From Cenococcum geophilum 1.58 (lineage: Eukaryota > Ascomycota > Dothideomycetes > Gloniales > Gloniaceae): a DNA stretch of 64,000 bases. A program made the position numbers and the translations under genes. The notes under the pieces are model-generated. The model saw nothing but the letters and a program-made list of their open reading frames with translations, ran no database searches and was not told the origin of the DNA. Below, in pieces: positions 2,093-63,627 of the stretch. Within the stretch, counting starts at the first letter, position 1; each line of letters opens with the position of its first letter. The stretch spans positions 5,113,092 through 5,177,091 of the forward strand of contig KV748176.1 in NCBI GenBank assembly GCA_001692895.1, written 5' to 3'.

Positions 2093-2311
2093 TGTATAAT
2101 TACAGCACATGGTACACCAAACGCGTAGTTACGCGTTTGGTGCACCAACCACTTAGGTGCTAACTAATTAGGGGGAGGCGCGTTAGTATATAGACTATAT
2201 AGTCTACCTTAATAGAATCAACAGTTACCACCATCCTAAAGAGCATACGATACTATACGTATTTCGTGCCCCGGGATATAACTTACTTATATTATTAAGT
2301 TAATATAAATA
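2093..2311 (+). repeat. Copia-1 5' LTR
   Basis: It begins TGTATAATTACAGCAC and ends AAATA (AAACA in the partner). Near 2112-2140 it holds a perfect hairpin with arms CACCAAACGCGT and ACGCGTTTGGTG around a 4-nt loop. A CCCGGG lies near the right end. Confidence 0.95.
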
Positions 2312-2529
2312 CTAATTAGTAAGCGCGCACAGATCAGCAATCACTTAACACCTCCCCCCGAGCGATACANNACAGNNACCACCNGTTTAGACTCCTAGTA
2401 CAACCTACTAGAAGGTTAGAAGCCGGGGATTACGGAACTATCACCAACTCTATATACTTATTTAAGTCTTAGTACGGTTTACTGGAAGTTTATAGACGTA
2501 AATACAGACCCTTACAGAACCCCCTATCC

Positions 2530-2700
2530 TTAACCCCTTAAACCTTAAACCCTTTCGGACCTTTTACGGAAACCCCCTACCCCCCTACAAACCATTACGG
2601 ACCTATTAATCGCCGTTACGGACCATTATAAGACCTCTTAAACTATTACGGACCCTTTAATTAATTTTACGGACCGTTATAAGACCTCCCCCACCCGTTA
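2530..2700 (+). repeat. Copia-1 leader: imperfect repeats of TTACGGACC
   Basis: Four copies of TTACGGACC lie about 22-29 bp apart between 2594 and 2680, in a C-rich leader before the gag start. Each is followed by a TTATAAGACCTC-like or TTTAATTAA-like stretch. The same 9-mer recurs through the coding part of this element. Confidence 0.75.
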
Positions 2701-5700
2701 TAAGCTACTACTACCCGCTACATACTATACTACATAGTATGGCAGACATAAGTAAGCAGATTAATAAAGGTCAAGAGAAATAGAGACAAGGAGTCAACCT
2801 TACGTCTATAGCTAACGTTAATAACTATATTAAGTACAAAATCCTTAAATATAGATATTTTAAGCTTATAAATAACGACCTATAGGAGCAATATAAAGAA
2901 GACTTTGCGGACTTTACGGAAGATATTCTTAAGACTTATAACCCTACTGCTATCCGTAACCTACAAACCCTTTTACGTCACTAAGGTGTATAGGTTAAAA
3001 AGGATAAATAAGTTACTATTATATGGTCCTTATATAACATAATATAGAAGGAGGACCAAACAGAATAGACTAAAGAGGAAATCCTAGACTAGGTCAAAGT
3101 CACTAATAAACTCTTTGCTTCTCCCAAACTTAATAGCATTACTAGCCTTATACCTAACCTACTTAACCAAATTTATCCTATAAACCTAAGCAATTTTGGA
3201 ATTAATCTTACGGGCTAAAGCATACCTAGTACTTAAGTTACGGACCGCAATACCCCCATAACCCAAATTACGGACCGTAATACCCCCGTAAACCAAAATA
3301 CGGACTAAAACCCTCCCGTCGCCCAAGCTACAAATCTATAAACCGCCTAAGTCATAGATCCGCAACCCACTTAAGTAAAAACCTACGGCAAGGAACTAGC
3401 TAACTTAGCTAAGCTCTATACTAACAAATCCAAGTATAGCAGTAAAAACAATAACTTTAACTTTAAACTCACTATCTTTACGGACCTCTATCAGAAGGCT
3501 AATATTCCTAAATAGGAATTCAGCCAAGCCTATTCCACTATACTACGCGGCCTAGCCCTTAACCACTACTATACCAACCTTAAAAGCAACCCCCTTAGTG
3601 TCTCCTTTAATAAGCTATACAAAGCTACACGTAACTACTTTAAAGGGCTAGAATATAGGCGTAATATCCTTACCCAATGGAATGCGATTAAGTTACGGAC
3701 CGTAATTAATAAGAATACCGAAAAGTCGACTATAGAGTGCCTGCAAATTCTTATTAAAGACCTCCAGCACCTATAGCACGGCCTTAACATTAAGCTTTAA
3801 ACGGATGACTTCCTATATAATAAGCTTATTACAGCTTACTAAAAAGTAAAACCCTATAAATACGCCTACTATAAGCCCGTAGACACCATAGCTGGTCTTA
3901 TTAACGATTTACGGTCCTCCATTATAACGTACAAAGTCTTAAACCCGCCAGATAGTACCTAAGCCTTCATTACAGACCTGCAAAACCCGCAAACTAACTT
4001 AGACGCCTACTTTATAGACCGCCGCTACCGCCAGCAGCACCCGCATCAACTAGGTCCTACCTATAACCCCTATAGCAACTCCCGTATAAAAGCATACCCC
4101 CGTAAACAAACTAGCCAAAAGTGCTTTATATACGGTAAGGAAGGATATTAGTCTACAAGGCATACCTAGGAAGAACGTACTAAGTCTAAAAAGAGACTTA
4201 ATAACTATATTAACCAGTTCATTTTAAAATACGAAGAAGAGGAAGTAAAAAAGCCTCCTAATAAGTCAATAGAAGCCCTTATAATTAACTTTAACTTAGA
4301 TACTTAGGAACAGAAGACCTTAGAGACGTTCCTAACTACTTTCGGACCTTTTACGGACAGCTAAGCCTTTAATATTATAACCGTATTAGCTAACCGCTCC
4401 TTCGTACACTTAATTACACCCAAAAACCAGCCCATAAATATACCCGTTAGACCCATTATAGACGTCACAAACCATAAACAGAACCCATTTACATATATCA
4501 CCACTAAACGCTACACCCCCAAAGAATTCTACGGCGTTATAATTAATACAGGTGCCTTTAAGAAATCTACTGTAGGTTACGGACAATACCTTATATATAA
4601 GACCACCACAAATGACAATACAGATATTAATACTATATAAACTAGGGCCGTAAACGTCTAATTTGGCATCAGCTCAACCATATCAATTAGATCAGTGGCA
4701 GTTAAGACCCCAATTAGCCTAATTAACTTCCACGTAGTAAAAGCGGACACCCCTTTTCTACTCTATCTTGCGGACATAGATAGGTTACAAGTTTACTACA
4801 ATAATATTACGGACACCGTAATTAGCCCCATAACTGCCCCAGGAAGCAAGCATATTACCCTACCAATTATATAACAATTTAGACACCCGTTCCTTATATA
4901 GGGAGAGACTTTACGGACCTATATTTAGGAATCTTTTAACTATAACCCATGCTACCTTACTAGTACTAAAATCCACTAACTATACCGCCGCTTTAGCTAC
5001 CTATCAGCCGAAAAGCTATATAGAGTCCTTAAACACTCTAGATATAACAACGTTAATAGGAAGGCAATTAACCACCTAACTAAATACTGCTCTTTTTACT
5101 AGAAATACGGACGTTCCTCAAGCAGATTTAAGTTCACCCTTTATAAGGACCTTAACTTCAACCACTTAGTATACGTAGACATTATATATATTAACAGCAG
5201 TCTAGTATTATATATAATTAACGAGGCAACCTGCTATTAAGCCGCCTGTTAGTTGCAAAATATATCCACAAAACATACTTAGGACATTTTACGGACCTAT
5301 TAGATTAATACATACCTTAGACCTCCTAAGTATATTACCTACAACGCTAGTAAGAACTTTATTAGCAAGGAATTCCAATAGTATACTATAGCCATGGCTA
5401 TTTTAACAAAAGCCGTTCTAGTTAAGGCGCACTAGTCTATTAGGCTTATTAAGTAAGCTTACCTAGCCCTATAGAGAGCTTACCAGATTATTATAAATAA
5501 GTATAAGGACATCTAAAAGGAACTGGCTTTACAGATAGCCGTAAAAGCCGTTAATGACACCGCTAGCCCTAACAGACTAGTACCCACCCTCTTAGTTTAC
5601 AGAGCCTACCTAAGGATAAGCAACCTAGGCCCTACTACCCCGTCTATTATAGAATAAGCAGCTGCAATACGGAAGGCAATAGCCGAAATAGTCAAATTAC

Positions 5701-7922
5701 GGGCTAAACAAGCCGTTAACAGCGCTTTATATCACCGCAACGGACCTAACACGACTTTAGTTTATAACCTCCCGCTCAATTCTAAAGTCCTTATATGGCG
5801 TAAGAGCGGCAATTGGACTAAACCTTACCGTTTACTGGCTATAGAAGACAAAACGTATTATATACAACTCCCTAGCGGACCAACTAACTTCAGAAGCATA
5901 TCCGTAAAACCCTATTTTCGGTCCAAAAATACCTATGCTGTTAAACTAGATAAACTAAAAGCACCCGCCAAACCAAACGAACTAGAAACACCCCTACCTA
6001 CTCTAGAAGTCCCCTATAAACCTACTAAACCTACCATAAAGCGTGGCCAAGGACGCCCCTAAAAGCACCCTATAACGGAGAACCCTATAACAAAAAACCA
6101 CCTAACCTCCGCAGGCATATCCGCAAAGCAATCTCCGCCTATAAATATATTAGTTCTGGTATAGGAAACCCCTTTTACGGACTCACAACGCAAAGAGATC
6201 AACGGACTACTTAAAAAGGGCGTCTTTACAGTCATAACGGAGAAAGACGTTCCGTAAGGCGTCCGTATATTTAACTCACGCTTCATTAACAAGATTAAGC
6301 ACCCTAATACTAATAAAGCCTTTAAGAAGTCAAGGCTCATTATATAAGCCTATAACAACTAGGGAAAGGACTTAGTCCTTATGCAATCGCCCATAATTTA
6401 ACGAGTCAGTTAACGGATTATACTTATACTTACGCCTGGACTATAGTAAACTAAGCCCATAGCCCTCTATTTACGGGATATCTTATAAGCCTACGTACAA
6501 TCCAATACCTACCTAAGTAGGGACATCTTTATACGACCACCCCTTAAGCTTAACTTATAACTAGGAACAATTTTACGGGTTATAAAACCCCTTTATAGAG
6601 TGCCAGAAGCTAGAAACCACTGGTTCAAGACGTACCACCAGCATTACATCCGTAAACTTAAAACGGAACAGTCAACCTACAACCCCTGCCTTCTATATAC
6701 ACTATCAAACGGCCTTAATATTATTAGACTCTAAATAGACAATACCCTCTTTATAGCGGACCGGACTTTTACGGACGCTAAAGAGAATAAATTATAAAAG
6801 GCTAAGTTCCTAGTAAAGCCGCAAGAGCAGTTAACTAAGTAGACCCCAGTTAAGTTTAATAGAGGCTTAATTATATAAAAGGGCAACCTAATCTAGTTGA
6901 CTTAGAAACGCCAAACTTAAAACCTAAGGCTTGTTATAGCAAAGCCTACGGACCTTACTAGTTCCCGCGGAGAGACCCGTAAGACTGTAAATATAAAGGA
7001 CTAATACGTCGCACAGCGTATAAGAGGCGCCTATATTGCCATAGTCTGTCAACCCAAATCTGCCTATGACTTATCCTTTACAGCCTAGGTAATAGATCCA
7101 CAAGAGGAAGATATTAAGCAGCTAAATAAGCGTATTTAGTGGCAAATTAACAATGCAACAAGAGGACTTACTTTTATACCACTAAACCTAAATTTCCTTA
7201 GCGTAATAGTATTTACGGACGCCTCCTTTGCCAATAATAGGGACCTATTATCGCAAATCGGCTTTATAATTATACTTACGGACCGTAATTAGGACGCAAA
7301 TATACTATATTGGTCTTTAATTAAATGCAAATAAGTAACCCGCAGCGTACTAGCTTCTAAACTATATACACTAGCCCATGGCTTTAATATAGCAGCCGCA
7401 ATCAAATCAACAATCTAGAAGATCCTATAATTGGAGCAGCTACCCCTAGTTTTATACACCAATTTAAAGTCCCTCTACAACTGCCTAGTCAAACTAGGTA
7501 CAACACAGGAGAAGAGGCTTATAGTCGACCTAATATGCTTACATCAGGCCTACGAACAACGTAAGATTACGGAGGTCAAATAGATCAGCACCGAAGACAA
7601 CCTAGCAGACGCTATAACTAAGGCAAAGCTGTACCAAGCTCTTAAAACCCTAATTAACACAAATAAGCTCAACCTAAGGGTTACAAAATGGGTGGAACGA
7701 GACTAACGGAGCACTTACGGTTCATTTACGGCCCGTTGGAAGGCCGTACGGTCTACTTTACGGACTGTAAGTAGGACTTACGACCAGCTTAGAGCACCGT
7801 TTGGAAGGCAGCCCAGAAGGCACCTTAGGAGGGATTTCCTATATATTTCTTTTGTGTTTTACGGCTCCATTAAAGCAATTACGGAGGTTAGATATAATTA
7901 AGTCATTTCCAAGTACCGCCAG

Positions 7923-8141
7923 TGTATAATTATAGCACGTGGTACACCAAACGCGTGGTTACGCGTTTAGTGCACCAACCACTTAGGTGCTAACTAATTA
8001 GGGGGAGACGCGTCAGTATATAGACCACATAGTCTACCTCAATAGAATCGACAGTCACTACCATCCCAAAGAGCATACGATACTATACGTATTTCGTGCC
8101 CCGGGATATAACTCACTTATATTATTAAGTTAATATAAACA
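7923..8141 (+). repeat. Copia-1 3' LTR
   Basis: This is the same 219-bp length as the 5' LTR, running from TGTATAATTATAGCAC to AAACA, and is followed by TSD GTTAT. The internal hairpin is kept with transition differences. Confidence 0.95.
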
Positions 8142-9605: not shown

Positions 9606-9670
9606 CTATAGAAGCCTAGTTAAACTAAGGCTGGAGCTAAGCTTAAGAAAAAAGTAAGCTTAAGATTAAG

Positions 9671-9840
9671 TGTCGGAACGTTAATCACGTGACGTAGTCA
9701 CGAGACTACGAAGCGAGACTAACTGGTCTGACCTCGGAGTAACCCCTTTCTTCTAAAAACAATTAACTACCAACTTCAACACCGCATACGTACCACTACA
9801 AGTGATATTCGTGCACGTTGATAAAGTGAGCATACTAACA
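9671..9840 (+). repeat. Copia-2 5' LTR
   Basis: This 170-bp LTR runs from TGTCGGAACG to ACTAACA. It keeps more CpG and CpA than the surrounding DNA. It differs from the 3' LTR at under ten sites, nearly all transitions. Confidence 0.95.
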
Positions 9841-9879
9841 CTAATCAGTAGACGTATAGATTAGGAAATACGCAATAGC

Positions 9880-10180
9880 AAAGCTTGAAACCACGCATTG
9901 GCTTAACTACTAACGCGTTAAATCGCAGAGCTATCGCCCTATTTTAGTTAAAGGAGAAAACTACGTTACCCTTAAAGCTTAAAACCACGTATTAGCTTAA
10001 CCGCTAACGCGTTAAATCGCCTAGAGAACCGTATCTTTACTTAGAGAGAGCTACGTTATCCTTAAAGCTTAAGACTACGTATCAGCTTGCTAATGCGCTA
10101 GATTGCCTAGAGGACCCTTAAAGCTTAAAACCACGTATTAACTTAACTGTTAACGTGTTAGATTGCCTAGAGGACCATAT
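9880..10180 (+). repeat. Copia-2 leader tandem repeats (four units)
   Basis: Four copies share the words AAAGCTTAAAACCACGTATT, TAACGCGTTA and ATCGCCTAGAG. They start near 9880, 9976, 10,063 and 10,122. Spacing is about 60-95 bp, with the last two nearly head to tail. They lie between the primer-site region and gag. Confidence 0.85.
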
Positions 10181-10245
10181 CTCTGCTAAGAATTGTCTAT
10201 AGTATCTAAGAACTGTAGATTCGTTAATAGGACATATATATACCT

Positions 10246-10350
10246 TTATACCCTTAACCTTAACCTTAACTATACCCCTAACCTTAATATAACCTTAACC
10301 TTAACCTTAACCCTAACCTTAAACTTTAACCTTAAACTTAAACCTCTAGA
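10246..10350 (+). repeat. CCTTAA hexamer run (telomere-like, inside Copia-2)
   Basis: This is a degenerate run of AACCTT/CCTTAA hexamers with one CCCTAA and one TATACC variant. It lies wholly within the Copia-2 leader, so it is not a chromosome end. Confidence 0.85.
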
Positions 10351-13300
10351 ACCTTTACTTAACCTTAAACTAAATATATACAAAAACACGACAACATGGA
10401 AATTAACTAGAAGGAAAGAATTGCTAAATACAGTAACAGAATTGACTTAGAGACGGCTATAGATAACGATCTAGCGGAGTATATAGAGACTAAGATGCAC
10501 CTATATACACAATCCAACCTTACAGACTCTTTATTATAGATAGTATTTTAGGAAAACTTTAAGGACTTTACGCTAGAAATCTTTATATAAGTATAATCTA
10601 ATACTAAAATAGGAATCCGTAAATACCTAGTTAAGAAAGGAGTATATATTGTTAAGTAAGATAAGAGATACTCCCTTAGCAAGGTACTAACGGATATTAC
10701 TAATAAAAAAGAGTTTCACGAATAGACGGACAAAGAGATTAGTCTAGCCCTTAATAATATTAAGCTAATAATTACTATGGCTCTATAAGACCGACTTAAT
10801 GCGACCTTAAATAAGCTCGCTATACCACTAGCTACTCTAATCGCTGCACCGCTAGCTACTCTAATTACTACACCACTAGCTACTCCAATCGCTGCCCCCG
10901 CTACCCCTACTACCCCCCCTAGATCTACTTCTACCGCTGCACCGCCAGCTACTCCAATTGCTGCCCCTACTACCCCTACTACCCCTCCTAGTCCTTAATC
11001 CTCTAATTATAACTAAATCCACGCTCTTATTAACTAACTGCTATAGCTAAGAGAGCAGCAACCACAGCAGCTATAGTAGCCGTAGTAACCGTAGCAGCTA
11101 TATATATATATACTACCTAAACCAGTTATGCCTAGTATAGAGCAAGGACCTAGATAAGGACCTAAATATAGTAAAGAGGTGGCTATAATTATAAAGATTT
11201 ACATAGACGACCAAAAGTATAATAGAGTTAGTAACAGCTTTGACTTTAAGTTAACTATCTTCTATAATATCTGTAAGAGATCTGGCTTGCCACCAGAAGG
11301 CTATATAGTAGCATTCCCTAGCATGCTAAAAGGGCTTACTTAGGACTACTACTATAATAGTAACCTTAAGTTAAGACCTTTTACTAAAGCCTATAACTAT
11401 ATACAACAGTTCTTTAAAGGGCTAGAATACTACCGCAAGAACCTTATAGAGTGGAACAGTATAACCCTCTAAGGAGTTATGGACGAGAACCCTAATAAGT
11501 TAATCTATTAGAACTTCTAACTACTTATAGATAAGCTGCTAAAGTAACATTATAAACTATACCTAGACTTTTATATAAACCGTATTCTTATAAATAAGTT
11601 AGTTACTACTTACTAGGGAGTATTAGCATGCTATATTGCTGTCTCTAACCCTTTAGAAAACCTTTCTCAGTTAATTAGTAAGCTATAATCCTCTATTATT
11701 ATATGGGAAAAAGAACACCCCCTATAGGCCTTAATAAGATCATCTTACTAAGCCTTTTTTACAGATTAACGCTACTACTGAAATGACCAGAATCGAGACC
11801 GAAACACCAATCGCTATAGTAGTAATTGCCCCTATAGGACTAACGGCAGACTAAGGGCCAAGTGCTACGTCTATAAGAAGGAGGACTGCCGTTTATAGAA
11901 ATATATAGAGGAGGAGCGTAATCGGTCCAGAGACGACTATAAGAGACGTTTTATTAATATTAAGGGCCGCAATAAGGGCAACTTTAACAACTACTTTAAG
12001 CAATACGTCGCTGCTTGTAAAAGAGATAAAGATAATAACTTAGACTTTAAAGCCTATATATATAACACTAACGGCTTTAGGAGCGATGCCGGAGAACCTA
12101 ATAATAGTTCTGCCTATATCACCACCTTTAGAACACTTACTACGGAGAAAGCAACCTCTATAAGCGTAGAGCTAGCTAATAAGGCTTATATATACCTACT
12201 TATAGCTTTAAAACTTACTACGAAGTCTACTACGGAACCTTATATGGAGACCGACCCATTTACCTACAGTATGGCCACAACTACAGCGCCACGATATACC
12301 TCGACGGTCTTTATAGGAATTATAATCGATATAGGTACTTCGCGTAAGTCTATAGCTGGCTACGGCCAATTCTAAGCTTTATAGACCGTAGACAAGTCCG
12401 TAAGCCTTAATAGGATTAGAGCCTCTACGTCTATCGGAACTATAGACGTTAACAGCCTTATAGGTAAGGTATAATTCTATATTATTAAAGCAGATACTCC
12501 TTTTCTACTTTACCTAGTAGATATGGACAGACTTTATATTAAATACGATAACCTAAAGGACGTTATTATTACTCGCACTAAAAGGGTGCTAGTAGTTAGA
12601 CGATTTGGCTACCCATTTCTCTTATAGAGCTTCTCCTTACAGTCTTATTTAGTTAAGTTTTTTAATACAAACCCTTGCTACTTAACTAACGTAGAACTAC
12701 GACACCTATACCATCGATTTGGTTACCCATTAGTTAATAAACTATAAAAGCTTCTTAACAAGGCTGGCTATAGCTATAACACTAATAAATCTGCTATTAA
12801 AGAGCTAACTAAACTCTGCTACTACTGCTAGAAGTTTAGTAAACCCCTAGGTAGATTTCGCTTTACCTTATAAGACAACGTTAATTTTAATTATAATATT
12901 ATCGTTAACATTATGCATATTAGCGGCTCCCCCCTACTATACGTAGTTAACAAAGCAACTCGATTTTAAGCTGGCAGATAGCTATAAGACATTAGCGCTA
13001 AGCATACTTAGGACGTTCTTTAAATATGCTAGATTAATAGCTATTTAGGACTACTAGACTTAATCATTATAGACGCTAGGAAGAACTTTATTAGTAAGGA
13101 GTTTAAGCACTACGCTGCTACTATGGGAGCAATTATAAAGTCGGTTCTAGTCGAATCACACAATTCTATTAGAATGGTAGAACGCTACTACGGTCCGCTA
13201 CAACGAGCCTACCAGATTATTACAACTAAAATCCCTAAAATTAGTAAGGAGATGGCCCTACAAATGGCCTTTAAAGCTATTAATAACACAGCCGGCCTAG

Positions 13301-15552
13301 AAGGCCTAGTCCCTATACTCCTAGTCTTTAGAGCCTACCCCCAAATAGTCGAATTAGACGCGCTATTACCTTTAGTTATATAACAAGCTGCGGCTATTAA
13401 GAAAGCAATAGTGGAAATCTAGAAGCTATAAGCTGAATAACAGATCGCTGACGCTCTTAATATACGAAATGGACCACAAACTGACGCTATTTACGGCCTT
13501 CCACCTAGTTCGCCTGTCTTAGTCTGGAGAGAAGGTAATACTAGCTAAAGTAGTTATTAGGACGGACCATATATACTACTTACCGTTAACAGTAAAACCT
13601 ATACTATAAAGCTACTAAATAGGCCTACAACCTTCCGCTCTATAATTGTAAAACCTTACCTACTAGACCTATAAGACCTAGTCGAACCACAAGAGTCTAC
13701 TAAATTAGATAAACTAGTACCTTTACCAGCTAAACCTTAATCGTTACCTAAGGCTAAACTATAGCTTCCGCTAAAGCGAGGTAGAGGTCGCCCCCATAAA
13801 TATCTATTGCTTACGGCCGTTATAAATATAACTGTTATGGATACTATAATAGATATAGACGCTTTCACAGGTAATATTGCGGATATTGCGGATATTATAG
13901 ATATCGCTATCTACTTATAGGACGATGATACCGCAGATACGGCTAGCACTAGAATTTACTTATAGAACAATAGCAACACCTAATTTAGCGCTTTACGATA
14001 AAAGGAGGTTATAGGCCTACTCGAGAAAGGCGTCTTTAAGATTATTAAACTACACGATATACTAAAGGGGGTTAAACTCTTTAATTTATAGTTTGTTAAC
14101 AAGATTAAGAATAAAGGAACCAATAAAGCCTTTAAGAAATTATAACTTATTATATAGGCCTATAATAACTTAGAGAAAGAGCTGGTCCTTACTTAGTTAC
14201 TGATAATTTAATAAGTTAGCCAGCGGCTAATTCTCTATATTGCTGCTATACTACCGTAGACACGACTTTACCTCTAAGATATCTTATAAGCCTATATCTA
14301 GTCTACTACGAACCTAAACCGCGAGTTCTACGTATAACTACTATATAAGCTAAATAAATAATTAGGAATTAATACGAACTCCGTTCTAAAGGTTATAAAG
14401 CCACTTTATAGAGTACCTAAAGCTAGAAACTACTGGTTTAAGACTTACTATTTATACTACGTTAATTAGCTGCGAATAGACCAGTCCATATACGACCCTT
14501 ACTTGCTTTACAGCAATAAGCCTTTTGGAATCGTCGGCCTATAGACTAATAATACACTATTCCTCGCAGATAATACCTTTATAGAGGCTAAATAAAGCGA
14601 ACTATATAAGGCCGAATTTATAGCTAAGGAGTAAGAGTAACTGACCGCTAATATACCAATTAAGTTTAACGGAGGACTTATTTAATTAATATAAGATAGG
14701 AGTATTACGCTAACGTAAAAGCGCCAGTATAAGAACCGTAGTATGGTTAATACTACGCTAGTAGATAGTACTAGCTCCAAAGGAGTTACGCGTGGCCTAC
14801 TTACGCTAAAGGACTAGTATATCGCTTAACGCGCCAGAAGAGCCTATATTGCCTTAGTCTATCAGCCAGAGGCCTTATTTAACCTATCCCTTACTACCTA
14901 GGTAATTAATTTAGTTAAAGATAATATAAAGAGTTTTAATAAGCAATTAAGCTAGCAGATTAAGAACGCAAATAGAAGCCTAAAGTTTGTTAAGCTAGAC
15001 GTTAATACCTTATAACTCCTAGTATTTACGGACGCTTCCTTCGCCAATAATAAGGACCTATCTTCGTAAATCGGCTATATACTTATACTAGCAGACGCCT
15101 TAAATAAGGCAAATATCGTCTATTGGTCCTTAATTAAGTGCAAAAGAGTTACTAGGAGTGTATTAGCCTTAAAGCTATACGGTATAGCGCACGGTTTCGA
15201 TATAGGCGCTATAATTAAATCTACGCTAGATAAGGTCCTACAGGTCAACTTGCCACTCGTTCTTTATACTAATTTAAAGTCCTTATATAACTGTCTCGTT
15301 CGACTAGAAACTACATAAAAGAAACGCTTAATAATTAATATAATGTGCCTTCGCTAAGCTTACGAATAAAAACAGATTACTAAAGTTAAGTAGATTGATA
15401 GAGATACTAACCCTATAGACGCTATAATAAAGGGTAAGCCTTATACGGCACTATTACAACTTATTAATATAAATCGAGTCGAATTATAGGCCGTAGGGTA
15501 GGTTAAACAAACGGATTTGGCTTTAGTAGGTACGGACTCATACTATACAGAG

Positions 15553-15650
15553 CCAGCCGCTAAGGCGCTAGTAGCAGGCGAGCTAATAGCGATTTTCTAT
15601 CCCGGGGATGGAAAATCCTAATTGGCCGGTTTAACGGTATGGCAGAATCC
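15553..15650 (-). repeat. Module A in Copia-2 (orientation reversed relative to the other Copias)
   Basis: The palindrome core at 15,591-15,617 has 13-bp arms GATTTTCTATCCC and GGGATGGAAAATC with one mismatch, around a single G. Flanks (GGCGCTAG, GAGCTAATAGC, CCTAATTGGCC, GGCAGAAT) match the modules in Copia-1b, Copia-3 and Copia-4. Relative to the coding strand it is inverted compared with those three. Confidence 0.8.
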
Positions 15651-15791
15651 AATAGGCGACACGCTTTAGGATTAAAGGTAGAGCTATTACATATTATGGA
15701 CGGAAGAGCTAGCTATTACATATACACTACAAGTAGTCTAGAAGACTTGACTTTAGAGTATAGATTAGCCTTCTTTTTAGAGTTGCTCCAG

Positions 15792-15961
15792 TGTCGGAAC
15801 GTTAATCACGTGACGTAGTTATGAGACTACGAAGTGAGACTAACTGGTCTGACCTTAGAGTAACCCCTTTCTTCTAAAAACAATTAACTACTAACTTCAA
15901 CACCGCATACGTACCACTACAAGTGATATTCGTGCACGTTGATAAAGTGAGTATACCGACA
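15792..15961 (+). repeat. Copia-2 3' LTR
   Basis: This 170-bp LTR runs from TGTCGGAACG to ACCGACA, followed by TSD TTAAG. Confidence 0.95.
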
Positions 15962-23848: not shown

Positions 23849-24063
23849 TGTATAATTACAGCACCTGGTATACGAACGCGTAAATACACGTTCGTGCACC
23901 AACCACCTACGTGCTAACTAATTAGGGGGGAGGCGCGTCAGTATATAGACCACGTAGTTTACCTTAATAGAATCGACAGTCACCATCTAAACAAGCATAC
24001 AATACTATACGTATTTCGTGCCCGTGGATACAACTCACTCGTGCTATTAAGTTAGTACGAACA
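23849..24063 (+). repeat. Copia-1b 5' LTR
   Basis: This 215-bp LTR runs from TGTATAATTACAGCACC to GAACA. The hairpin seen in the Copia-1 LTR is kept but with different arm sequence (ACGAACGCGT and ACACGTTCGT). Confidence 0.93.
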
Positions 24064-27000
24064 CTGATTAGTAAGCGCGCATAGATTAGTAATTACTTAA
24101 TACCTCCCCCTAAGTAATACACACGACAGTAACTACCTATTTAGACTCCTAGTATAACCTGCTAGAAGGTTAGAAGTTGGGGATTACAGACTTATCTCTA
24201 ACTCTGTATACTTATTTAAGTCTTAGTACGGTTTACTAGAAGTTATAGACGCGAATATAGACCTATACAGAACCCCTATCCTTAACCCCCTTAAACCTTA
24301 AACCTCTTCGGACCTTTTATAGAAAACCCCTACCCTCCTGCGAACCATTATAGACCCATTAATTAATTTTATGGACTGTTATAAGACCTCCCCCACCTAT
24401 TACAAGCTGCTACTACCCGCTACGCACCACACTATACTATAGTATAGCAGACATTAGCAAGCAAGTTAGTAAAGGTTAAAAGAAGTGGAGATAAGGAGTC
24501 AACGTTACGTCTATAAACAACGTTAATAACTATATTAGTTTTAAAATCCTTAAATATAAATACTTTAAGCTTATAAATAACGACCTATAAGAGTAATACT
24601 AGGAAGACTTTACGGACTTTATGGAAGCTATTCTTAAGGCCTATAACCCTATTACTATCTATAAACTATAAACCCTTTTATATAACTAAGGTGTATGGGT
24701 TAAAAGAAATAAACGAGTTACTGTTATATAGTCCTTGTACAATATAATACACAAGAAGGACTAAATAGAATGGACTAAAGAGGAAATCCTAGACTAGTTC
24801 TAAGAAACTAAGGAACTTTTTACTTCTTCTAAACTTAATGTAATCGCTAGCCTTATACCTAACCTACTTAACTAAATTTGTCCTATAAACCTAAGCGGCT
24901 TTAGACTTAACCTTATTAGCTAAAATATACCCTACTCTTAAGTTACGGATTATAATACCCCTATAAACTAAAATACGGACTAAACTACCCCTGCTATTTA
25001 AGTTATAGACCTATAAGCTATATATCCGCAAGCTATAAATCCATAAGTTATAGATCCGCAACTTACCTAAGTAAAGACCTATGGTAAGGAGCTAGCTAAC
25101 CTAGCTAAGCTCTATACCGATAAATCTAAATATAGCGGTGAAAATAATAATTTTAACTTTAAACTAACTATCTTTACGGACCTTTGCTAGAAGGCCAATA
25201 TTCCTAAATAAGAGTTTAGTTAAGCCTACTCTACCATACTGCGCAGCCTAGTACTTAACTACTACTACACCAACCTTAAGAGTAACCCCCTTAGTGTCCC
25301 CTTTAATAAGCTATATAAAGCTACCTATAACTACTTTAAAGGACCGGAATATAGGCGTGATATCCTTACCTAATGGAATGCAACTAAGCTATAGACCATA
25401 ATTAACAAGAATACTAAAAAATCGACTATAGAGTGCCTGCAAATTCTTATTAAAGACCTCCGGCACCTATAGCACGGCCTTAACGCTAAGCTTTAAATAG
25501 ACGACTTTCTATATAATAAACTTATTACGGCCTGCTAGGAAGTAGAGCCCTGCAAGTACGCCTACTATAAGCCTGCAGATACCTTAGCTGGCCTTATTAA
25601 TGATCTACGCTCCTCTATTATAACCTACAAAGTCTTAAACCCACTAGGCAGCACTTAAGCCTTTATTATAGATATTTAATATCCGTAAATAGACTTAGAC
25701 GTCTACTTTACGGACCGCCGCTACCGCTAGCAGTACCTGTACCAACTAAGTCCTACCTATAACCCCCGCAGCAACCCCCGTATAAAAGTATACCCCTATA
25801 GACGAATAAGCCAGAAATGCTTTATGTGTAGTAAGGAAGGATATTAGTCTATAAGGTATACCTAGGAAGAACGTAATAGGTCTAAGAAGAGATTTAATAA
25901 ACGGATTAGCTAGTTTATCTTAGAATACAAAGGAAAGGAAGAAGAGGAGCCCCCTAATAAGTTAATAGAAGCCCTTATAATTAACTTTAACCTAAATAAC
26001 TAGGAATAGGAGACCCTAAAGACGTTCCTAACTACTTTTAGACCTTTTACAGATAGCTAAGCCTTTAATATTACGACCGTATTAGCTAACTGTTTCTTTA
26101 TATACTTAGTTACGCCTAAAAACTATTCCGTAAGCACCCCTGTTACGAACGTTATAGATTATAAGCAGGACCTATTTATATATATCACCACAGAACGCTA
26201 TACCCCTAAGGAATTTTATGGTGTTATAATCGATATAGGCGCCTCTAAGAAGTCTACTGTAGGCTATGGACAATACCTTACATATAGGACTACTATAAAT
26301 AACGATACGGACATTAATATTACGTAAACTAGGGCCGTAAACGTCTAATTTGGCATTAGCTTAACTGCATTAATTAAATTAGTTATAGTTAAGACCCTAA
26401 TTAGCCTAGTTAACTTCCATATAGTAAAAGCAGACACCCCTTTTTTACTTTGCCTTATAGATATAGATAGGTTATAGGTTTACTATAACAATATTACGGA
26501 CACCTTAATCGGCCCTATAACTGCCCTAGGAAGCAAGTATATTACCCTGCCAATTATATAATAATTTGGACACCTGTTCCTTATATAGGGAGAGACTTTA
26601 TAGACCTATATTTAGGAATCTTTTAACTATAACCTATGCTACCTTACTAGTACAGAGATCCACCGTCTATACTACTATTTCGGCTACCTATTAGCCGAAA
26701 AGCTATATAAAGTCCTTAAACGCTCTAGACACGACGACGTTAATAGGAAGGCAGTTAATTACCTAACTAAATACTGCTCCTTTTGCTAGAAATACGGACG
26801 TTCCCCAGGCCGATTTAAGTTTACCCTTTATAAGGACCTTAACTTTAACCACTTAGTATACGTAGACATTATGTATATTAACGGTAGCCTAGTATTATAT
26901 ATAATTAACAAGGCAACCCACTACTAAGCCGCCCGTTAGTTATAAAATATATCTATAAAGTACACTTAGGATATTTTACGGACCTGCTAGATTAATACGT

Positions 27001-29539
27001 ACGTTAAACCTCCTAAGTATATTACCTACGACGCCGGTAAGAACTTTATTAGTAAGAAATTCTAGTAGTATATTACGGCTATAGCTATATTAACAAAAGC
27101 TATTCCAGTTAAGGCGTATTAGTTTATTAGGCTTATTAAGTAAGCTTACCTAGCTCTATAAAGAGCTTATTAGATTATTATAGATAAGTATAAGGATATT
27201 TAAAAGGAACTGGCTTTACAGATGGCCGTAAAAGCCGTTAATAACACCGCTAGCCCTAACAGACTAGTACCCACCCTCTTAGTTTACGGAGCCTACCTAA
27301 GGATAAGCAACCTAGGCCCCCTTACCCCGTTTATTACGGAACGAGCAGCTATAATATAGAAGGCAATGGCCGAAATAGTTAAATTACAGGCCAAATAAAC
27401 TATTAATAACGCCCTATACTACCGCAATAGACCTAATACGACCTTAGTATATAACCTCCCGCTTAACTCTAAAGTTCTTATATAGCGTAAAAGCAGCAGC
27501 TAGAATAGACCCTATCGCCTACTAGCTATAGAAAACGAGACGTGCTATATATAGCTTCCTAGCGGGCCAACTAGCTTTAGAAGCACGTCCGTAAAACCTT
27601 ACTTTCGATCTAAAAACACCTATAATGTTAAACTAGACGAACCGGAAGCACCCGCCAAACTAGATAAACTAGAAGTACCCCTACCTACCTTAGAAGTCCC
27701 CTAGGAACTTACTAAACCTACTAAACCTACCATAAAGCGTAGCTAAGGACGCCCCTAAAAGTATCCTATAACTAAGAACCCTATAATAAAGAATTACCTA
27801 ACCTCCATAGGCATATCCGTAAGACAATCTCCGCCTATAGATATATTAGTCCTAGTATAGGAAACCCCTTTTACGGACTTACGGCGTAAAGAGATTAACG
27901 GACTATTTAAAAAGGGCGTCTTTATGGTTATAATAGAAAAAGATGTTCCGTAAGGCGTCTATATATTTAACTTATACTTTATTAATAAGATTAAGCACCC
28001 TAGTACTAACAAAGCTTTTAAGAAATTAAGGCTTATTATATAAGCTTATAATAACTAGGGAAAGGACCTAGTCCTTACGTAATTACCTATAATTTAATAA
28101 GTTAGTTAACGGATTATACTTATACTTATGCCTAGACTATAGCAAACTAAACCTGTAGCCCTCTACTTATGGGATATCTTATAAGCTTACATACAGTTAA
28201 ATACCTACCTAAGTAGGGACATCTTTATATAACTACCCTATAAGCTTAACCTATAACTAGGAACAATTTTATAGGTTATAAAACCTCTTTATAAGGTACT
28301 AGAAGCTAGAAACCACTGGTTTAAGATATACTACTAGCACTATGTTAGTAAACTTAAAATAGAACAGTTGACCTATAACCCCTACCTCCTATACAGCCTA
28401 TTAAACGGCCTTAGTATTATTAGACTTTAAACAGATAATACCCTATTCCTAACAGATTAGACCTTTATAGACGCTGAAGAAACTAAACTATAAAAGGCTA
28501 AGTTCTTAGTAAAGCCGTAAGAGTAGTTAACTAAGTAGAATCTAATTAAGTTTAATAGAGGCCTAATTATATAAAAGGGTAACTTAATTAAGCTAACTTA
28601 GGAACGTTAAGCTTAAAACCTAAAGCCTGTTATAGTAAAGCCTATGGACCTTACTAGCTCCTATAAAGAGACCTGTAAAACCATAAATATAAAGGACTAA
28701 TACGTTATACAGTGTGTAAGAGGCGCCTATATTGCTATAGTCTATTAACCCAAATCTACCTATAATTTATTCTTTATGGCCTAGGCAGTAGATCCGTAAG
28801 AAGAAAATATTAAGCAGCTTAATAAGCGTATTTAGTGGCAAATTAATAATATAGCAAGGGGACTTACTTTTATACCACTAGACCTAAGTTCCTTTAGCTT
28901 ACTAGCATTTATAAACGCCTCCTTTACTAATAATAGGGACCTATTATTATAAATCGGCTTTGTAATTATACTTATAGACCATAATTAGGATATAAATATA
29001 CTGTACTGGTCTTTAATTAAGTATAAATAAGTAACCCGCAGTATACTAGCCTTTAAACTATATATACTAGCTTATGGCTTTAATATAGCAGCCGCAATTA
29101 AATTAACGGTCTAGAAGATTCTATAACTAGAGCAGTTACCCCTAGTTTTATATACTAATTTAAAGTCCCTCTATAACTGCCTAGTTAAACTAGGTACGAT
29201 ATAAGAGAAGAGGCTTATGGTTAACCTAATGTGCTTATATTAGGCCTATAAATAACGTAAAATTATAGAGGTTAAATAAATTGGCGGCGGAAATAACCTA
29301 GTAGACGCTATAACTAAGGTAAAGCCGTATTAAGCCCTTAAAACCCTAATTAATATAAATAAGCTTAACCTAAAAGTTATAGAATAGGTAGAACGGGACT
29401 AATAGAGTACCTATAGTACGCCTACGGCCTATTAAAAGGCCGTACGGCTTATTATACGGCCTATTCTATAGACCGTAAGCTATTAGGTAAAAAACGGTAG
29501 AAAGCTATAATAAAACTTAGTAGACTTATATAACCTACC

Positions 29540-29660
29540 AAATTCTGCTATATTTTGCCACAGTAGTTAAATCCACTAATTATAATTTTCTATGCCGGGC
29601 ACGGAAAATTGCTATTAGCTCGCTTAGCACTAGCGTCTTAGCGGCCCTTAAGATCTAACT
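29540..29660 (+). repeat. Module A in Copia-1b
   Basis: The palindrome core at 29,584-29,610 has 13-bp arms AATTTTCTATGCC and GGCACGGAAAATT around one G. Flanks, read on the reverse strand, match the Copia-2 module (GCCGCTAAG.CGCTAG, GCGAGCTAATAGC). It lies in an insertion absent from Copia-1, between two copies of CCGTAAG-type sequence. Confidence 0.78.
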
Positions 29661-29870
29661 TATGGCTCGTTTACTGCCTATTAAAAGGCCGTATAGTTTA
29701 TTTTATGGACCGTAAGCAGGACTTACGGCCAGCTTAGGGCACCGTTTGGAAGGCAGCCCAAAAGGCACCTCGGGAGGAGTTTCCTATATATTTTCTTATA
29801 TATTTTATAGTTCTATTAAGGCAATTACAGAGGCTATATATAAGTAGTTTTATTTTCTAAGTACCGCTAG

Positions 29871-30085
29871 TGTATAATTATAGCACCTAGTATACAAATA
29901 TGTAAATACGCGTTTGTGCACTAACCACCTACGTGCTGACTAATTAGGGGGGAGGCGCGTTAGTATATAGACTACGTAGTCTACCTTAATAGAATTAACA
30001 GTCACTATCTAAACAAGCATACGATACTACACGTATTTCGTGCCCGTGGATACGACTTACTTGTGCTATTAAGTTAGTACAAACA
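29871..30085 (+). repeat. Copia-1b 3' LTR
   Basis: This 215-bp LTR runs from TGTATAATTATAGCACC to AAACA, followed by TSD GTAAT. Confidence 0.93.
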
Positions 30086-45580: not shown

Positions 45581-45753
45581 TGTCAGGAATAAGGCAAGCG
45601 GTTGTTACGTATCGTCACGTATCGCCGCGGCACTAGCGTGGTGAGGAACCTTAGGTTCCTTACCCACCCCCTAATTCTAAATAATAAGCTTTACAACTAA
45701 CATTTACTATATCTACTTAAGTAGCATTAGTGAGTTACCCTGTAACACTAATA
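45581..45753 (+). repeat. Copia-3 5' LTR
   Basis: This 173-bp LTR runs from TGTCAGGAATAAGGC to CACTAATA. It contains the palindrome AGGAACCTTAGGTTCCT (near 45,644-45,660) and CCGCGGCACTAGCG. Confidence 0.94.
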
Positions 45754-48700
45754 CTAATTAGTGGTTAAATATATAGTCAACTACAGAGCAGCTAGGTTAT
45801 TAATAGAAAAGATAGTCTTGTATAGGGGTGCTATATACGCTTATATAGAATAGATCCCGGCGATACTATACTACCTTAGACTTACGGAAAACTAGTAACA
45901 GAAGTGTTACTAAGTACTAGGAGATACTAAGTTGCGTCTATTACGCAGAACAATTATATTTACGAAGATTTAGTCGAGTACTTTAGGTTAGAAGTGTTAC
46001 TAAACCTAAGGTCCCAAGTTGACGTCCGAAACGCGTCAAACAACATCTTAAATTGCCCACCTTTGGACAGCAAACCTATAAGATCCTATAAAACCGAAAA
46101 TCCTACCTACCTTTAACGTATAACACCTCGTCAATTCTACCTACTATAGCGTTAACCTATCCGAAAAAGTATAAAAAAGATATTAACCCGGAGATATAGA
46201 ATAGAGCTATAACTAACTTTATAACCGCTAAGCAACAGGACCTAAATAGATTCTTAATATACCGCATGGAATACTATAAAGATAGCAAATACAATAATAC
46301 CGCGCTATAGTATTATATAAAGGAGGACTTTATTAAATAGATAAAGGAAACATAGGTTCCTATAAATAAAGATATCGTATAGGACTTCCGTAACTTCCTT
46401 TAGGAGTATAGAGTATTTATCCCTATAGATAGGGGTAGTATTAAGGACAACATTTAGGAACACGTTGTTAATATAAAGGAAGAGCATAAATAGACTCTAT
46501 AAGAGATTAAGCACCAACTACATACTATAAAGAAGCTTAAATTACAATGGAACCTAAGTAATACACTACTAGAGATACGTTCTAACTCTATCGCTCTAGG
46601 CACGAGTTCTAACATTCTATATCTATTGCCTCTACCTCTATCTTTAACTCCCCTATATCAACCAGCTTAACCCACAGCCTTAATTAACAACCCCTAATAA
46701 GTATAAGATCCCCTTTTTTCGCGGTCTAATAACCTTTAAACTCCGCTAATTAGATCTATATTACTATCGCAGCCTATAATATAATGCAGCTAAATACTAA
46801 TTAGAGGCACCTTAAAAATGCTTATAGAGCTTATAAAGCTCTATTTAGAACAGGAGAAGAAGTTTAGCAAAGAACTATATAATATCCTTAATTCAAAGTT
46901 ATATATCTTCTATAACTATTGCTAGAAGGTTAGACTAGAACCTAATTAATACCATATTACTTATTTAGTTATGCTTAAGGGCTAAGCTAGTACCTTCTAT
47001 TATAATTGTTTGGTAGAAAAAGGATATAATTTTAACCGAATAATATATAAAATAAGATGCCACTTTAAAACAGAGGAGAATAAGTAGTAGTATATATTGG
47101 AGTGGAGAGAGACTACCTTTTTAAGAATTATTGCTATAAACCTAGGTACCTCTTAACTTAATTGTCTTTAAAAGCTCTTTAATTAACTCTAGATAATTTA
47201 GTATAGTTTATCCAAATTATATTAAGAGGACTTTAGCCTACGCGATTAAGTCATTAGCGTATACTAAGGTGTTAAAGAATATAACCTTACTCTCTTTAAC
47301 CCTATAAGTACTTATAAAGGAGTATATACTTAATTAAGATCCTCTATTAGCACCGCCCTACGCTCTTAAGAAGTATAGCAATTTAACGCCCAACTCTAAC
47401 CTACTTTAATCGACCCAGCTAACCAATATGATTATAACTGGACTAATTAAATATATAGTGGTCGTAGCAGGGGATACGGTAGAGGGTATAATTAACGTCA
47501 ACTATAAAGTAATTATGGAGGTCCTCGTAGAGGTTTATTTCATAACAATTAGTAGAAGAAATGCTACGTTTATAAGAAGCCAAATTACTAGTTAACTAGA
47601 CACCCCCTTAATAGATAAAAGGAGGCATATAATAAGTTTCGCCAGAGTGCACGAAACGTTAAAAACTAAGAAGTCACTACAGCCTACTTCTAAAGCTTCC
47701 TAGTTTAATATAAAGGCGAAGAAGATCTTAAGGGTGAGATTAATAAGGCTAAACAGCTCCTTATAGATATAAAAATTGAGGACTACTCTTTTAACCAATA
47801 CTTTACCAAGTATGGTAAGGTAAATGGCGCATAAACCGTTGCTATCCTTAATAACCAATCTACGCTCCATTCTGTTATAAGGTTAGATATCTTTAATAAG
47901 TTAAAGAAAAGTTCCACGTTCTCCTTTAATAACAGATACTCGGCGAACGTCTTTTATGGTATTATACTAGATACTAGAGCCGCAGGAGTATTTATAGTAG
48001 GAGAACCTTAAATCCAAGCTCTTTAGTAGCTTAATAGTTCTATCTAGATTAACTAATTAACGGCAGGCCAATATATAATTTGCTTTAGCAAGGGTACTAT
48101 AATCTCTTTCAGCACAATTAAGGTCTAAACCCCATTAGGATATATTACTTTCTATATTATTCCCGCAAATACCCTATTCCTATTCTGCATCTAAGATATA
48201 GATAAATTAGGCGTTAAGCTTAACAACCTTAAGAATATGCTTGTTTAGGGAGATAATTAGGTACCCGTTGTACGCAAGTAGGGTCACCCTTAGTTGCTCC
48301 TTTAACAGCCAAAAAGGAGCGTTGCTTAGAGTTACTTAACTAAGTTAGAGCTACGTTAACTACATCATCGTTTTAGCCACCTATCCGTTTACTAACTACT
48401 TAGGGTTCTTCAACAAGTAGGTCATAAAGTTAAGGTTAAGGCAATTAAACATCTTATAAAGTACTGCTATTACTACTAAATAAACTAAAAGTCCCCTAGC
48501 CAATTTAAGTTTACCCTTAAAGACGACTATAACTTTAACTTCTGTATTATTATAGATGTTATATATCTTAGCAGCAAGCCAGTACTCTAAGTTATTAACT
48601 TCTTAACCTCCTTCTAAGCCGTACACTTTTTAAAAGATATATTAGCTAGGAACGTATAGGATACTTTTTAATTATATTAGATTAATGTCTACCTAAAACC

Positions 48701-51155
48701 CCCTAATTAAATCGTTTACAACGTAGAAAAGAACTTCTTATTTATAGAGTTTTAATAATAGGTAAAGGCAATAACAATTAAGGTTAAGGAAGTCCCCGTT
48801 AAGGCATATAATAGTATTAAAAAGGTAGAACAATACTATACGCCATTACGCCGCGTATATAAGATTATTTCTTTAAAACTAGAGGGTGCTAGCGAAGAGC
48901 TTATCCTATAGATAGCTATTAAGGCTATTAATAATACCGCTGGCCCAGATAGGCTTATACCTACGTTACTAGTCTTTAGCGCCTACCCTCAAATAACTAA
49001 TAATTCTTTATTATCTCTCTCTATTATATAACAAGCTAAGGCGATTTATAAGGCAATAAAGGAGGTATAACGTCTCTACGCCACGCGCCAGGTCAACGAC
49101 GTACTAGGAATAAGAAATGGCTTAAACACCTTAACTACGCTCAATCTGCCACTCCAATTTAAGGTACGCGTATAGCGTAAAAAGGGAGGATGGTTAGGCC
49201 TACATAAACTTATTATAATTAATAGTCAGACTTATATTCTTTAGATGCCCTATAGACCTACTTAATTCCGTTTAACTATTATTAAGCCTTATTATAAAGA
49301 TAACAGTTCCAAGCCTTTATAGGATACCTTAGAAGATACCCTAGAAGATACCTTAGAGGAGAACCACGATTAACGTGCCCTAGAAGGCGACTACGACCCT
49401 AATATAACTATAGTAGATACGCCGCAACCACGACGTAGTAGAGGTCGCCTAAAGGGATTACGAAACCGCCAACACCTTATTAATTTTAAAGAGCAACTTA
49501 TTGCCGCCATTAAGAATAGAGTCGAGCTATTAATGGCCTTTATAACAGCTAAAGAGAAGGCTAACTTTAAGCTCGCAAAACAGCTCCAAAAGGAAGGCCG
49601 TATTATAACTTTAGGAGCTCCTTTCTAAGCATCTAATAAGTAGGAGATTAACGGTCTTATTATAAGAGGAGTCTTTAAATTTAAGAAGTATAACCCTGCT
49701 AAGTCCAATAGGGTTTATATATTTAGGTTAAGAATAGTTAATAAGATTAAAGGTAAAGCTACCGATACCCCATTTAAGAAGTCAAGGCTAGTTATTTAAG
49801 GTTATAACGATAATAGTAAGGAAGTAATTCTTATGTAATCCCCTATAATTTAACGAGCTAGTTAGCGAGTTATTATTACGCTAGCTCCCTCCTTAATAAA
49901 GAATGGAATAGCGGTTTATTTATAAGATATTACCTAGGCCTATACCCAATTAGAGATACGCCTTTAGCGCTTAATACTAGCATACCTTCTAGAGCAAATT
50001 CGCCACTAATATCCCGAAGATACGATTATAGTTATGCTTAAGCCACTATATAGAATCGCAGAGGCAGGAACTTATTAGTGGGCTACTTATAGTAAGCACT
50101 ATAAAGAGAAGCTTTTAATAACTACTTCTATATTTAATCCCTACTTCCTTATTATAGCTACAGGAACTCTATTTAGAATTATTAGTATATAAACGGATAA
50201 TATAATTATCTTAGGAGACAACCAATTTTTAGCTCTTAAAGAAGATAAGCTAGTAAAGGTAAACCTTATAGCAAAGCTAAAGGAAAGACTTAATTTAATA
50301 ATACTATTACTCTTTAATGGATGCATTATTTCCCTAAATAAGGATTCTATTGCCCTATACTAGAAAGGTTAAGGTAAGAAGATTAACGTTATTAATATTA
50401 ATTCTCTAAAGTAAGGATATGTAGAGTAACGCGCTTGCGGAGCTTATATAGCTTTTATCTGTTAACCTAAAGCTTCCTTTAATCTCTTTATTACTACCTA
50501 ATACCAGGAACTAACTAAGGATGATATTTTTAACCTAAATAAGCGTCTTTTCTAGCAAATGAACCATCTTAATTGGGGACTACTCTACGTACCTATTAAT
50601 CTTCCTACCGCTAAGCTATTTGTGTTTATTAATAGATCGTTTATAAATAATAAAGATTTTAGCTTTTAGCTAGGATATAAGATTATTATAGCAAACAAAT
50701 CTACTAGAGAGAATGACTTTATAATCTACGGCAATCTTATCTATTAGAGCTTAACTAAGAGTAAACGCGTTACTTAAAGCGTTTTAGCGTTAGAGATATA
50801 TAGAATAGTTAGTGGAGTTAATATGGCAATTATAATTGGAACTACCCTTAAGATAATTATAGATTAACTTAAACTTCCTATTATCCCTATAATCGTATAC
50901 ACCAACTTATATTCCCTCTATAAGTGTTTAGTTAAGCTTAGTACTATAAAGGAGAAGCGCCTTATAATCAATATTATAGCACTTTAGCAGTCCTATAAGT
51001 ATTAAGAACTCTTTAAGATTTAATAGATTAATAGCTAAGATAACCTAGTAGATATAATAACAAAGGCAAACCCAAATAAGGCACTAGAGACGTTTGTTAA
51101 TATAAATACTCTACATATACGAGTTAAAGGTTAGGTTAAAAGGGAAATTTAGAGA

Positions 51156-51214
51156 AGTTAAGATCTTATAGAACTTCGACCGCCGGTTAAAGTTATCTAA
51201 TTAGTTAGATTCTT
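51156..51214 (+). repeat. Module B in Copia-3
   Basis: The palindrome core at 51,172-51,194 has arms AACTTCGACCG and CGGTTAAAGTT around one C. Flanks (TTAAGAT at the left, ATCTAATTAGTTAGATTCTT at the right) match Gypsy-2 and Copia-4 in the same orientation relative to coding. It lies just after pol. Confidence 0.8.
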
Positions 51215-51244
51215 GCTAAGAGCACTACGCCTAATTAATTTAGG

Positions 51245-51345
51245 TGGCGGTATAGAGTTCTGCCAACGCTATTCGTTAAGCTAGCTAATTAGAATTTTCC
51301 ATCCCTAGGATGGAAATTGCTATTAGCTTAGCTAAGAGCGGTAAG
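51245..51345 (+). repeat. Module A in Copia-3
   Basis: The palindrome core at 51,293-51,318 contains AATTTTCCATCC and GGATGGAAATT around a CTA-type centre. Flanks TTAAGCTAGCTAATTAG and GCTATTAGCTTAGCTAAGAG match the other modules on the reverse strand. It lies between module B and the 3' LTR. Confidence 0.8.
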
Positions 51346-51495
51346 CAGAACTAACATCTTCGTACAAACCCATACATCTACCTACGCTACCTCTTCCCCT
51401 TTATTTCTTCTTCTTCTTCTCCTTAGCTTTATATCTTTATATAGTAGCAATCTACAAGTATATATAGATAGTAACTATAAAAAAAGAGTTGCTAG

Positions 51496-63438: not shown

Positions 63439-63627
63439 CTAGCAACTCTTCTTTTATAGTTGCCATCTATATATATATACCGCTTAACTAGTATAATAAA
63501 TATTAATCCTCCTTACTTACTATTGCTATTATAATATAAGTCTCGCTATTCTAAAATTTGCCTCTTAACACGTAGTGCTTTCTTACTTAGGAGTTATAGG
63601 TAAATATTATGTTCACAAGGCCGTTAA

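Follow-up and report, generated by a model that had tools for sequence, protein, structure and literature searches.

The window analysed here, a 64-kb stretch of the Cenococcum geophilum 1.58 genome, contains four complete Copia elements (Copia-1, Copia-1b, Copia-2 and Copia-3) and part of a fifth, Copia-4, which has pol on the minus strand by homology and extends past the window end. The GalEa Conserved Hairpin Site was found after the 5' LTR in 4/4 complete Copia elements of the window, in 0/1 Gypsy elements, and in 0/2000 random stretches. In Copia-2 this GalEa-type hairpin motif is formed by CTAATCAGT and ATAGATTAG. Four of the five elements, all except Copia-1, carry a palindromic module, and its location between pol and the 3' LTR, first described in a sequence-only reading of this DNA, holds for all four window copies. 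The coordinates are collected in Table 1.

Table 1. Modules, carrier elements and second palindromes in the window (numbered from its first base)
Feature	Position	Strand	Evidence and remarks
Gypsy-type LTR fragment with core 15591-15617, in the pol-3' LTR spacer of Copia-2	15556..15671	+	profile 121-260/264, nhmmer E 4.3e-22
LTR fragment in Copia-1b	29531..29651	-	profile 114-248, nhmmer E 2.3e-20; module antisense, i.e. LTR in the carrier's sense
LTR fragment, version B, in Copia-3	51258..51458	-	profile 36-215, nhmmer E 1.9e-21
LTR fragment in Copia-4	63587..63708	+	profile 95-209, nhmmer E 2.2e-23
Second palindrome near the Copia-3 fragment	51171..51221	-	BLAST of the L063 element to the window, 92%; motif scan
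Second palindrome near the Copia-4 fragment	63717..63787	+	order and polarity to the LTR fragment as in L063; BLAST, motif scan
Second palindrome in the module-free element 56470-62815	56813..56865	+	BLAST, motif scan; polypyrimidine edge after the element's left LTR
Copia-2 carrier	9669..15956	+	LTRs 9669-9835 / 15790-15956, self-BLAST pair 95.8%; GalEa-type hairpin motif
Copia-1b carrier	23849..30085	+	LTRs 23849-24063 / 29871-30085; GalEa-type hairpin motif
Copia-1b segment missing from Copia-1 (195 bp), holds the module	29463..29657		alignments
Left copy of the ~54-bp direct duplication bordering the Copia-1b insert	29409..29462	+	aligns to Copia-1 7713-7766
Right copy of the ~54-bp direct duplication bordering the Copia-1b insert	29658..29711	+	aligns to Copia-1 7713-7766
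Copia-1, close relative of Copia-1b, without module	2093..8139	+	single-copy stretch 7713-7766
Copia-3 carrier	45581..51666	+	LTRs 45581-45751 / 51496-51666; GalEa-type hairpin motif

The coding capacity of these elements is eroded. Pfam searches were uninformative for six window ORFs and gave a single weak match, to a domain of unknown function, for seven carrier ORFs, which we attribute to frames broken by RIP-like decay. CA and TG occur at 0.45 and 0.35 of their expected frequencies and TA at 1.58, the pattern that repeat-induced point mutation (RIP) would leave. BLAST with reverse transcriptase (RT) sequences was uninformative on the Copia elements, and an RT profile search was used in its place. 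This search puts the pol of Copia-1 on the plus strand (6234-6887, E 9e-4); the pol strand of Copia-3 and Copia-4 is taken from DNA homology and LTR position, with no RT match of their own. A far less decayed piece of Copia RT (30982-31377, minus strand, E 6.6e-35) lies ~0.9 kb past Copia-1b, and direct-repeat arrays with self-matches at ~40-bp and ~60-bp steps were observed at 17660-18118 and 31640-31936.

The four palindrome cores reported in the sequence-only reading are real. The core of the Copia-2 copy reads GATTTTCTATCCCGGGGATGGAAAATC, and comparison of the window with itself pairs 15556-15623 with 63620-63687 on the same strand (88%) and 15556-15635 with 29645-29566 on the opposite strand (79%), while the 51.3-kb copy surfaces as inverted repeats. 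The flanks proposed to be common to all copies do recur in general, except at the 51-kb copy, whose left side is different (version B) and by eye resembles an inverted partial copy of the left sequence of version A. The proposed length of ~100 bp is an underestimate in places, with homology extending over 51258-51458 and 15556-15671. The inverted placement in Copia-2 was also borne out, the module being sense to pol there and antisense in Copia-1b, Copia-3 and Copia-4.

To the genome search suggested in that reading, the answer is ~3,000 copies in 177.2 Mb (177.19 Mb) on 162 contigs. A degenerate core pattern (34 places, up to 3 mismatches) gave 2322 + 2214 matches on the two strands versus 0 + 0 for the reversed control. 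The pattern matched both strands at 58 of 116 sampled sites, so the true copy number is nearer 3,000 than 4,536, and the latter figure was rejected as double counting. Furthermore, a search with nothing but the 25-base left flank (3 mismatches allowed) gave 1072 + 1153 matches versus 1 + 0 for the control, far more than chance likeness of the flanks would produce.

Our sample consists of 116 module copies. Of these, 74 lie in L039-L108, the loci that surround 70 of the first 100 pattern matches listed; these matches all fall on contigs C1 to C3 and have zero mismatches to the core pattern; the remaining copies came from likeness searches and are biased towards Copia-1b. Single-linkage clustering of the flanks merged nearly everything and was discarded. 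The flank clusters used below (L0, L1, ... L16) come from a community method applied to short flanks, and their numbers are labels rather than families proved by a pol tree.

The origin of the module became visible at locus L100, which holds a 271-bp LTR that includes the palindrome and has the same build as a 210-bp core-less LTR described below. Searching the genome with this 271-bp stretch returned full-length, sharp-ended relatives; the 40 best of 3872 scored candidates include matches as long as 1-271. Twenty LTRs were fetched with their flanks. By our reading, six have unique DNA at the left and a polypyrimidine edge (the polypurine tract, PPT, read backwards) at the right, eight have a common internal leader at the left and unique DNA at the right, and six have unique DNA at both sides and are solo copies. 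Exact 5-bp target duplications border three of the six solo LTRs (GCCTA at L193, GCATT at L199, CTAAG at L201), and the other three (L191, L195, L198) have target duplications with one C/T difference; L195, L198 and L199 have one common target site. On C23 (905921-912111), two core-bearing LTRs lie on one strand, 5.9 kb apart, with leader and PPT facing inward and outer flanks alike at 4 of 5 bases. The core is present in all 20 fetched LTRs, which were chosen by likeness to the core-bearing LTR, and in L100, one copy having a 6-bp deletion. With its sharp ends, direct pair and target duplications, the 265-271-bp stretch around the module is an LTR.

A profile of 264 positions was built from 21 LTRs, L100 included, and run against the window with nhmmer. 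It matched all four modules, in every case as a partial LTR (E 2e-23 to 2e-20), and beyond them gave just three weak signals, which echo the palindrome on the opposite strand of the Copia-2, Copia-3 and Copia-4 copies. Partial coverage is also the rule in the genome sample, where 110 of 114 copies cover fewer than 230 of the 264 positions. The four that cover at least 230 are L062, L074, L086 and L100, of which L100 is itself part of the profile and is an LTR with its own internal leader adjoining. The fragment's left end falls at profile positions 100-129 in 75 of 114 copies. Such a recurrent left edge is unlike random truncation, and the less alignable LTR stretch next to it may explain part of the recurrence. 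Matches of version B in L3, L4, L5 and L11 reach barely beyond the core and the right part of the LTR.

These fragments also bear on whether the module is a mobile unit of its own, for example a ~100-bp non-autonomous element of MITE or SINE type inserted independently into many elements. Homology across unrelated contexts is prominent only at about -48 to +58 around the module centre, the module occurs in both orientations, some copies have GGCAGAATTT repeat tails, and the left end is recurrent, all of which such an element could explain. However, full LTRs contain the module with homology continuous at both sides, which strongly disfavours this origin, and by eye no target duplications were seen at module ends in the few copies inspected. 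No tRNA gene was detected in 10 scanned loci, and Rfam gave zero gathering-level matches in the window and none that was credible in seven loci; a tRNA- or SINE-like origin was rejected on these results. A known RNA family was likewise rejected, the matches being sub-threshold ones of microRNA type (best E 0.008) and one to a viral stem-loop. We therefore regard a MITE- or SINE-like origin as very unlikely. The self-mobile unit suggested by the sequence-only reading finds no support, since the module is interior to a 265-271-bp LTR with proper ends, target duplications and element context.

The affiliation of this LTR comes from its core-less sister. Loci L063 and L029 contain a common element (90% over 772 aligned positions) whose first 210 bp include the module flanks without the palindrome; in L063 a copy of the core-less lineage occupies 559-768 (minus strand). 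The 210-bp LTR had 1757 candidates at first look, with sharp-ended matches in the best 40 scored. Its flanks fall in two classes, either outer DNA plus a backwards PPT or the common internal leader plus outer DNA, with a few copies that by eye belong to neither, and on C18 a pair lies 8.1 kb apart with CTCTG at both outer sides. The palindrome is missing in 20/20 fetched sister LTRs (L163-L182), which were chosen by likeness to the core-less LTR. In the L063 internal region beside this LTR we found a chromodomain match (PF00385, E 2.7e-4, below the curated cut-off); the L029 copy gave none. The source group thus appears, from a chromodomain beside the core-less sister LTR, to be of Ty3/Gypsy chromovirus type. 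Taken together, the profile result and the sister LTR adjoining this apparent chromodomain make the module ("Module A" in the sequence-only reading) very probably an internal piece of a Gypsy LTR.

The core-less L063 element also has a second palindrome (of AACTTTAACCGSCGGTTAAAGTT type), located inward of its PPT. This abundant second palindrome, in the form AACTTTAACCGCCGGTTAAAGTT, gave 2709 + 2700 genome matches versus 1 + 1 for the control, and because it is palindromic most of its sites should count on both strands. The second palindrome lies beside the module in the Gypsy order and polarity in 24 of 35 L0 copies, 4 of 5 L4 copies, L066, and the 51- and 63-kb window copies. In Gypsy family L3 it is on the pol side in 8/8 copies. 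It was not found beside the module in the Copia-1b and Copia-2 window copies, nor in L1 (0/31), L2 (0/14), L5 to L8 (0/12) or the singletons L10 to L16 (0/7). Capture of a Gypsy 3' end is therefore supported in some families only.

Across the genome sample, the module keeps a fixed kind of place in its carriers. In the resolved families, the outer end of the carrier is found on one side of the module, in most cases at a distance of 285-590 bp (extremes ~205 and ~660); L8, L11, L13, L15 and L16, in which the end was not placed, are left out of these distances. The near end is the 3'-LTR side wherever pol is placeable. Among loci longer than 2.5 kb, the Copia RT profile matched on the module-consistent strand in 7 of 31 L1, 1 of 11 L2, 2 of 2 L6 and 1 of 15 L0 loci (the last at E 0.008). 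Gypsy frames with an SH3_Tf2-1 match were found in five of eight L3 copies (E 1e-14 to 0.004), of which four have it at one offset and L047 at another, and in L066 (E 9e-13); the Gypsy matches in L5 were weak (E 0.003 and 0.006). Those that turned up in L0, L1, L2 and L4 loci are scattered in their offsets, and we take them as neighbouring elements. At L049, the module centre lies ~110 bp past the stop of a frame whose motifs we read, as an assumption of ours, as those of a tyrosine recombinase; the tested part of this frame had zero Pfam matches. In L049 and L099 the module is followed by long GGCAGAATTT-type repeats. As judged from such matches, the carriers are apparently GalEa-type Copia elements in the main, with other Copia elements, Gypsy families and one element read as tyrosine-recombinase-bearing (L049) besides.

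Close relatives differ in whether they have the module and in how it is oriented. Copia-1 gave zero matches to the LTR profile, which confirms the earlier statement that it lacks the module, and the pair Copia-1b and Copia-1 thus shows presence versus absence among close relatives. Both flanks of the Copia-1b insert align to one single-copy Copia-1 stretch. The Copia-2 relative L005 has pol sense to the module (Copia RT profile E 0.004); in the Copia-2-like loci L065 and L074, the module is inverted relative to Copia-2. The pol of L065 is 73% like that of Copia-2, and 67 of 77 module positions are identical despite the opposite orientation. Among relatives of Copia-3, the L0 group has the module antisense and the L7 group has it sense, and version B occurs as well.

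These mixed orientations among Copia-2 and Copia-3 relatives favour repeated acquisition over one inherited copy, and a single inherited module with one local inversion was rejected on the same evidence. A broader form of vertical descent, in which one ancestral capture was followed by inversion and loss, would explain why sampled members of the larger families have a common module and adjoining element end. However, the carriers span Copia and Gypsy, the better-conserved module of Copia-2 and its 73% relative L065 is oppositely oriented in the two, and the Copia-3 relatives have antisense, sense and version B modules. We consider this explanation extremely unlikely.

Chimaeric copies of the module were seen as well. 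An A-type left side is combined with a B-type right side in 9 of 40 copies selected by the left flank (L129, L135, L140, L144, L146, L148, L149, L153 and L154), and also in L063; these chimaeras are joined at the palindrome. L161 has an exact A-type left flank and a GGCAGAATTT side, with the palindrome missing.

Very probably, the module is an internal LTR part (probably U3) of Ty3/Gypsy chromovirus-type elements that was captured several times by other elements, in the stretch from pol to their 3' LTR. We demonstrated that the module belongs to an LTR, that carriers have it as partial copies in both orientations, and that it was captured more than once; the capture step itself and the direction from Gypsy LTR to Copia are what we infer. 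Fragments of the Gypsy LTR would enter the pol-3' LTR spacer of other elements, on several occasions, in some families together with the stretch just inward of the Gypsy PPT, and would then multiply along with their carriers. For LTR-sense copies we favour template switching of reverse transcriptase onto the 3' end of a co-packaged Gypsy RNA, and for antisense copies nested insertion of an LTR followed by deletion. The spacer would be a place that tolerates such passengers. Template switching is in keeping with the long duplication in Copia-1b and with the Gypsy order next to the L0 and L4 modules. No clean 5-bp duplication was seen by eye around carrier copies, L062, L074 and L086 included, in the few copies inspected. 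A more speculative, rather unlikely idea is that the U3 palindrome serves strand transfer as a hot spot or docking site, at which Gypsy 3' ends recombine time and again with co-packaged Copia RNAs in either orientation. If true, the palindrome would have made one LTR piece a 3'-end part now shared across retrotransposon superfamilies.

The sequence-only reading had also proposed that the fold of the palindrome matters, from a stem change that keeps pairing. The change itself is genuine: one stem pair covaries among C-G, G-C and A-T. Covariation was counted in 40 copies picked by the left flank only, since in pattern-selected copies, which were rejected for this use, the core pattern fixes most letters. 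The core was seen by eye in 39 copies, and 38 passed a strict core filter, which dropped L133 despite its core and L161, where the core is missing. Three steps from the centre, a Watson-Crick pair (C-G, A-T or G-C) occurs in 28 of 38 copies versus 12.9 in shuffled sets, and 0 of 5000 shuffles reach 28. For the one further pair with changes in both arms (k=6), no association was found in the 38 copies (p 0.26). Two RIP events can turn G-C into A-T, and a change from C-G to G-C is beyond RIP.

This covariation would be expected if the module were a selected structural element of RNA or DNA (packaging, termination or dimerisation) that is kept near the 3' end of carriers, the LTR being one of the places where it resides. 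One LTR has a better fold than its own shuffles (z -2.7), and in every resolved family the module is near one element end, both in keeping with such a role. However, only one pair is informative, and hairpin-templated repair could also keep the paired arms alike. Identity in the module is 0.78-0.91 versus 0.57-0.88 in the other 20-position bins of the LTR (last 4 positions excluded), so conservation in the module does not exceed that elsewhere in the LTR, and the palindrome is missing altogether from an abundant sister LTR. Moreover, an identical fold would be needed from both strands. Conservation and the palindrome-less lineage together give little sign of a required fold. We hold a selected structural element to be unlikely; the claim that the fold matters is not supported, and a captured LTR fragment riding as a passenger is the simpler view of the palindromic module.

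These results carry a warning: a repeated structured motif common to unrelated retrotransposons can turn out to be part of the LTR of yet another element. The thousands of copies are a dense natural record of how Copia and Gypsy elements share parts in a single type of slot, usable to test the frequency and the sequence features of RNA recombination across retrotransposon superfamilies. No prior report of the module was found in the titles or opening abstracts of the one literature library searched.

Among known systems, the source resembles the LTRs and solo LTRs of Ty3/Gypsy chromoviruses in its 210-271-bp repeats, TG/CA-type ends, 5-bp target duplications and PPT, and perhaps in the apparent chromodomain near the 3' end of the sister element. 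It is unlike them in that one lineage here has the palindrome and its sister lineage is without it. The main carriers correspond to the fungal GalEa Copia elements, which, in the part of the published account consulted, have a Conserved Hairpin Site with CHSeq1 and CHSeq2 after the 5' LTR (PMC5445492), and both sequences follow the 5' LTR in the four complete Copia elements of the window. For C. geophilum, the sections consulted give 177.57 Mb and 10.4% GalEa Copia (PMC5445492; PMC5023957). As described there, the GalEa hairpin is located after the 5' LTR (PMC5445492), whereas the module is located before the 3' LTR and has a different sequence. Mosaics formed by template switching or recombination are described, in the portions consulted, for LTR retrotransposons (Sabot and Schulman 2007, PMC1950507) and for grass centromeric retrotransposons (PMC4079200), and as there, new elements arise here from parts of two parents. 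The published mosaics, as far as these portions go, join related parents (PMC1950507, PMC4079200), whereas here Copia elements and other families have a piece of a Gypsy LTR, in one sort of place and in both orientations. Retrotransposon mosaicism itself is thus known, and the module is best described as a fragment of a Gypsy LTR that Copia elements and others have captured.
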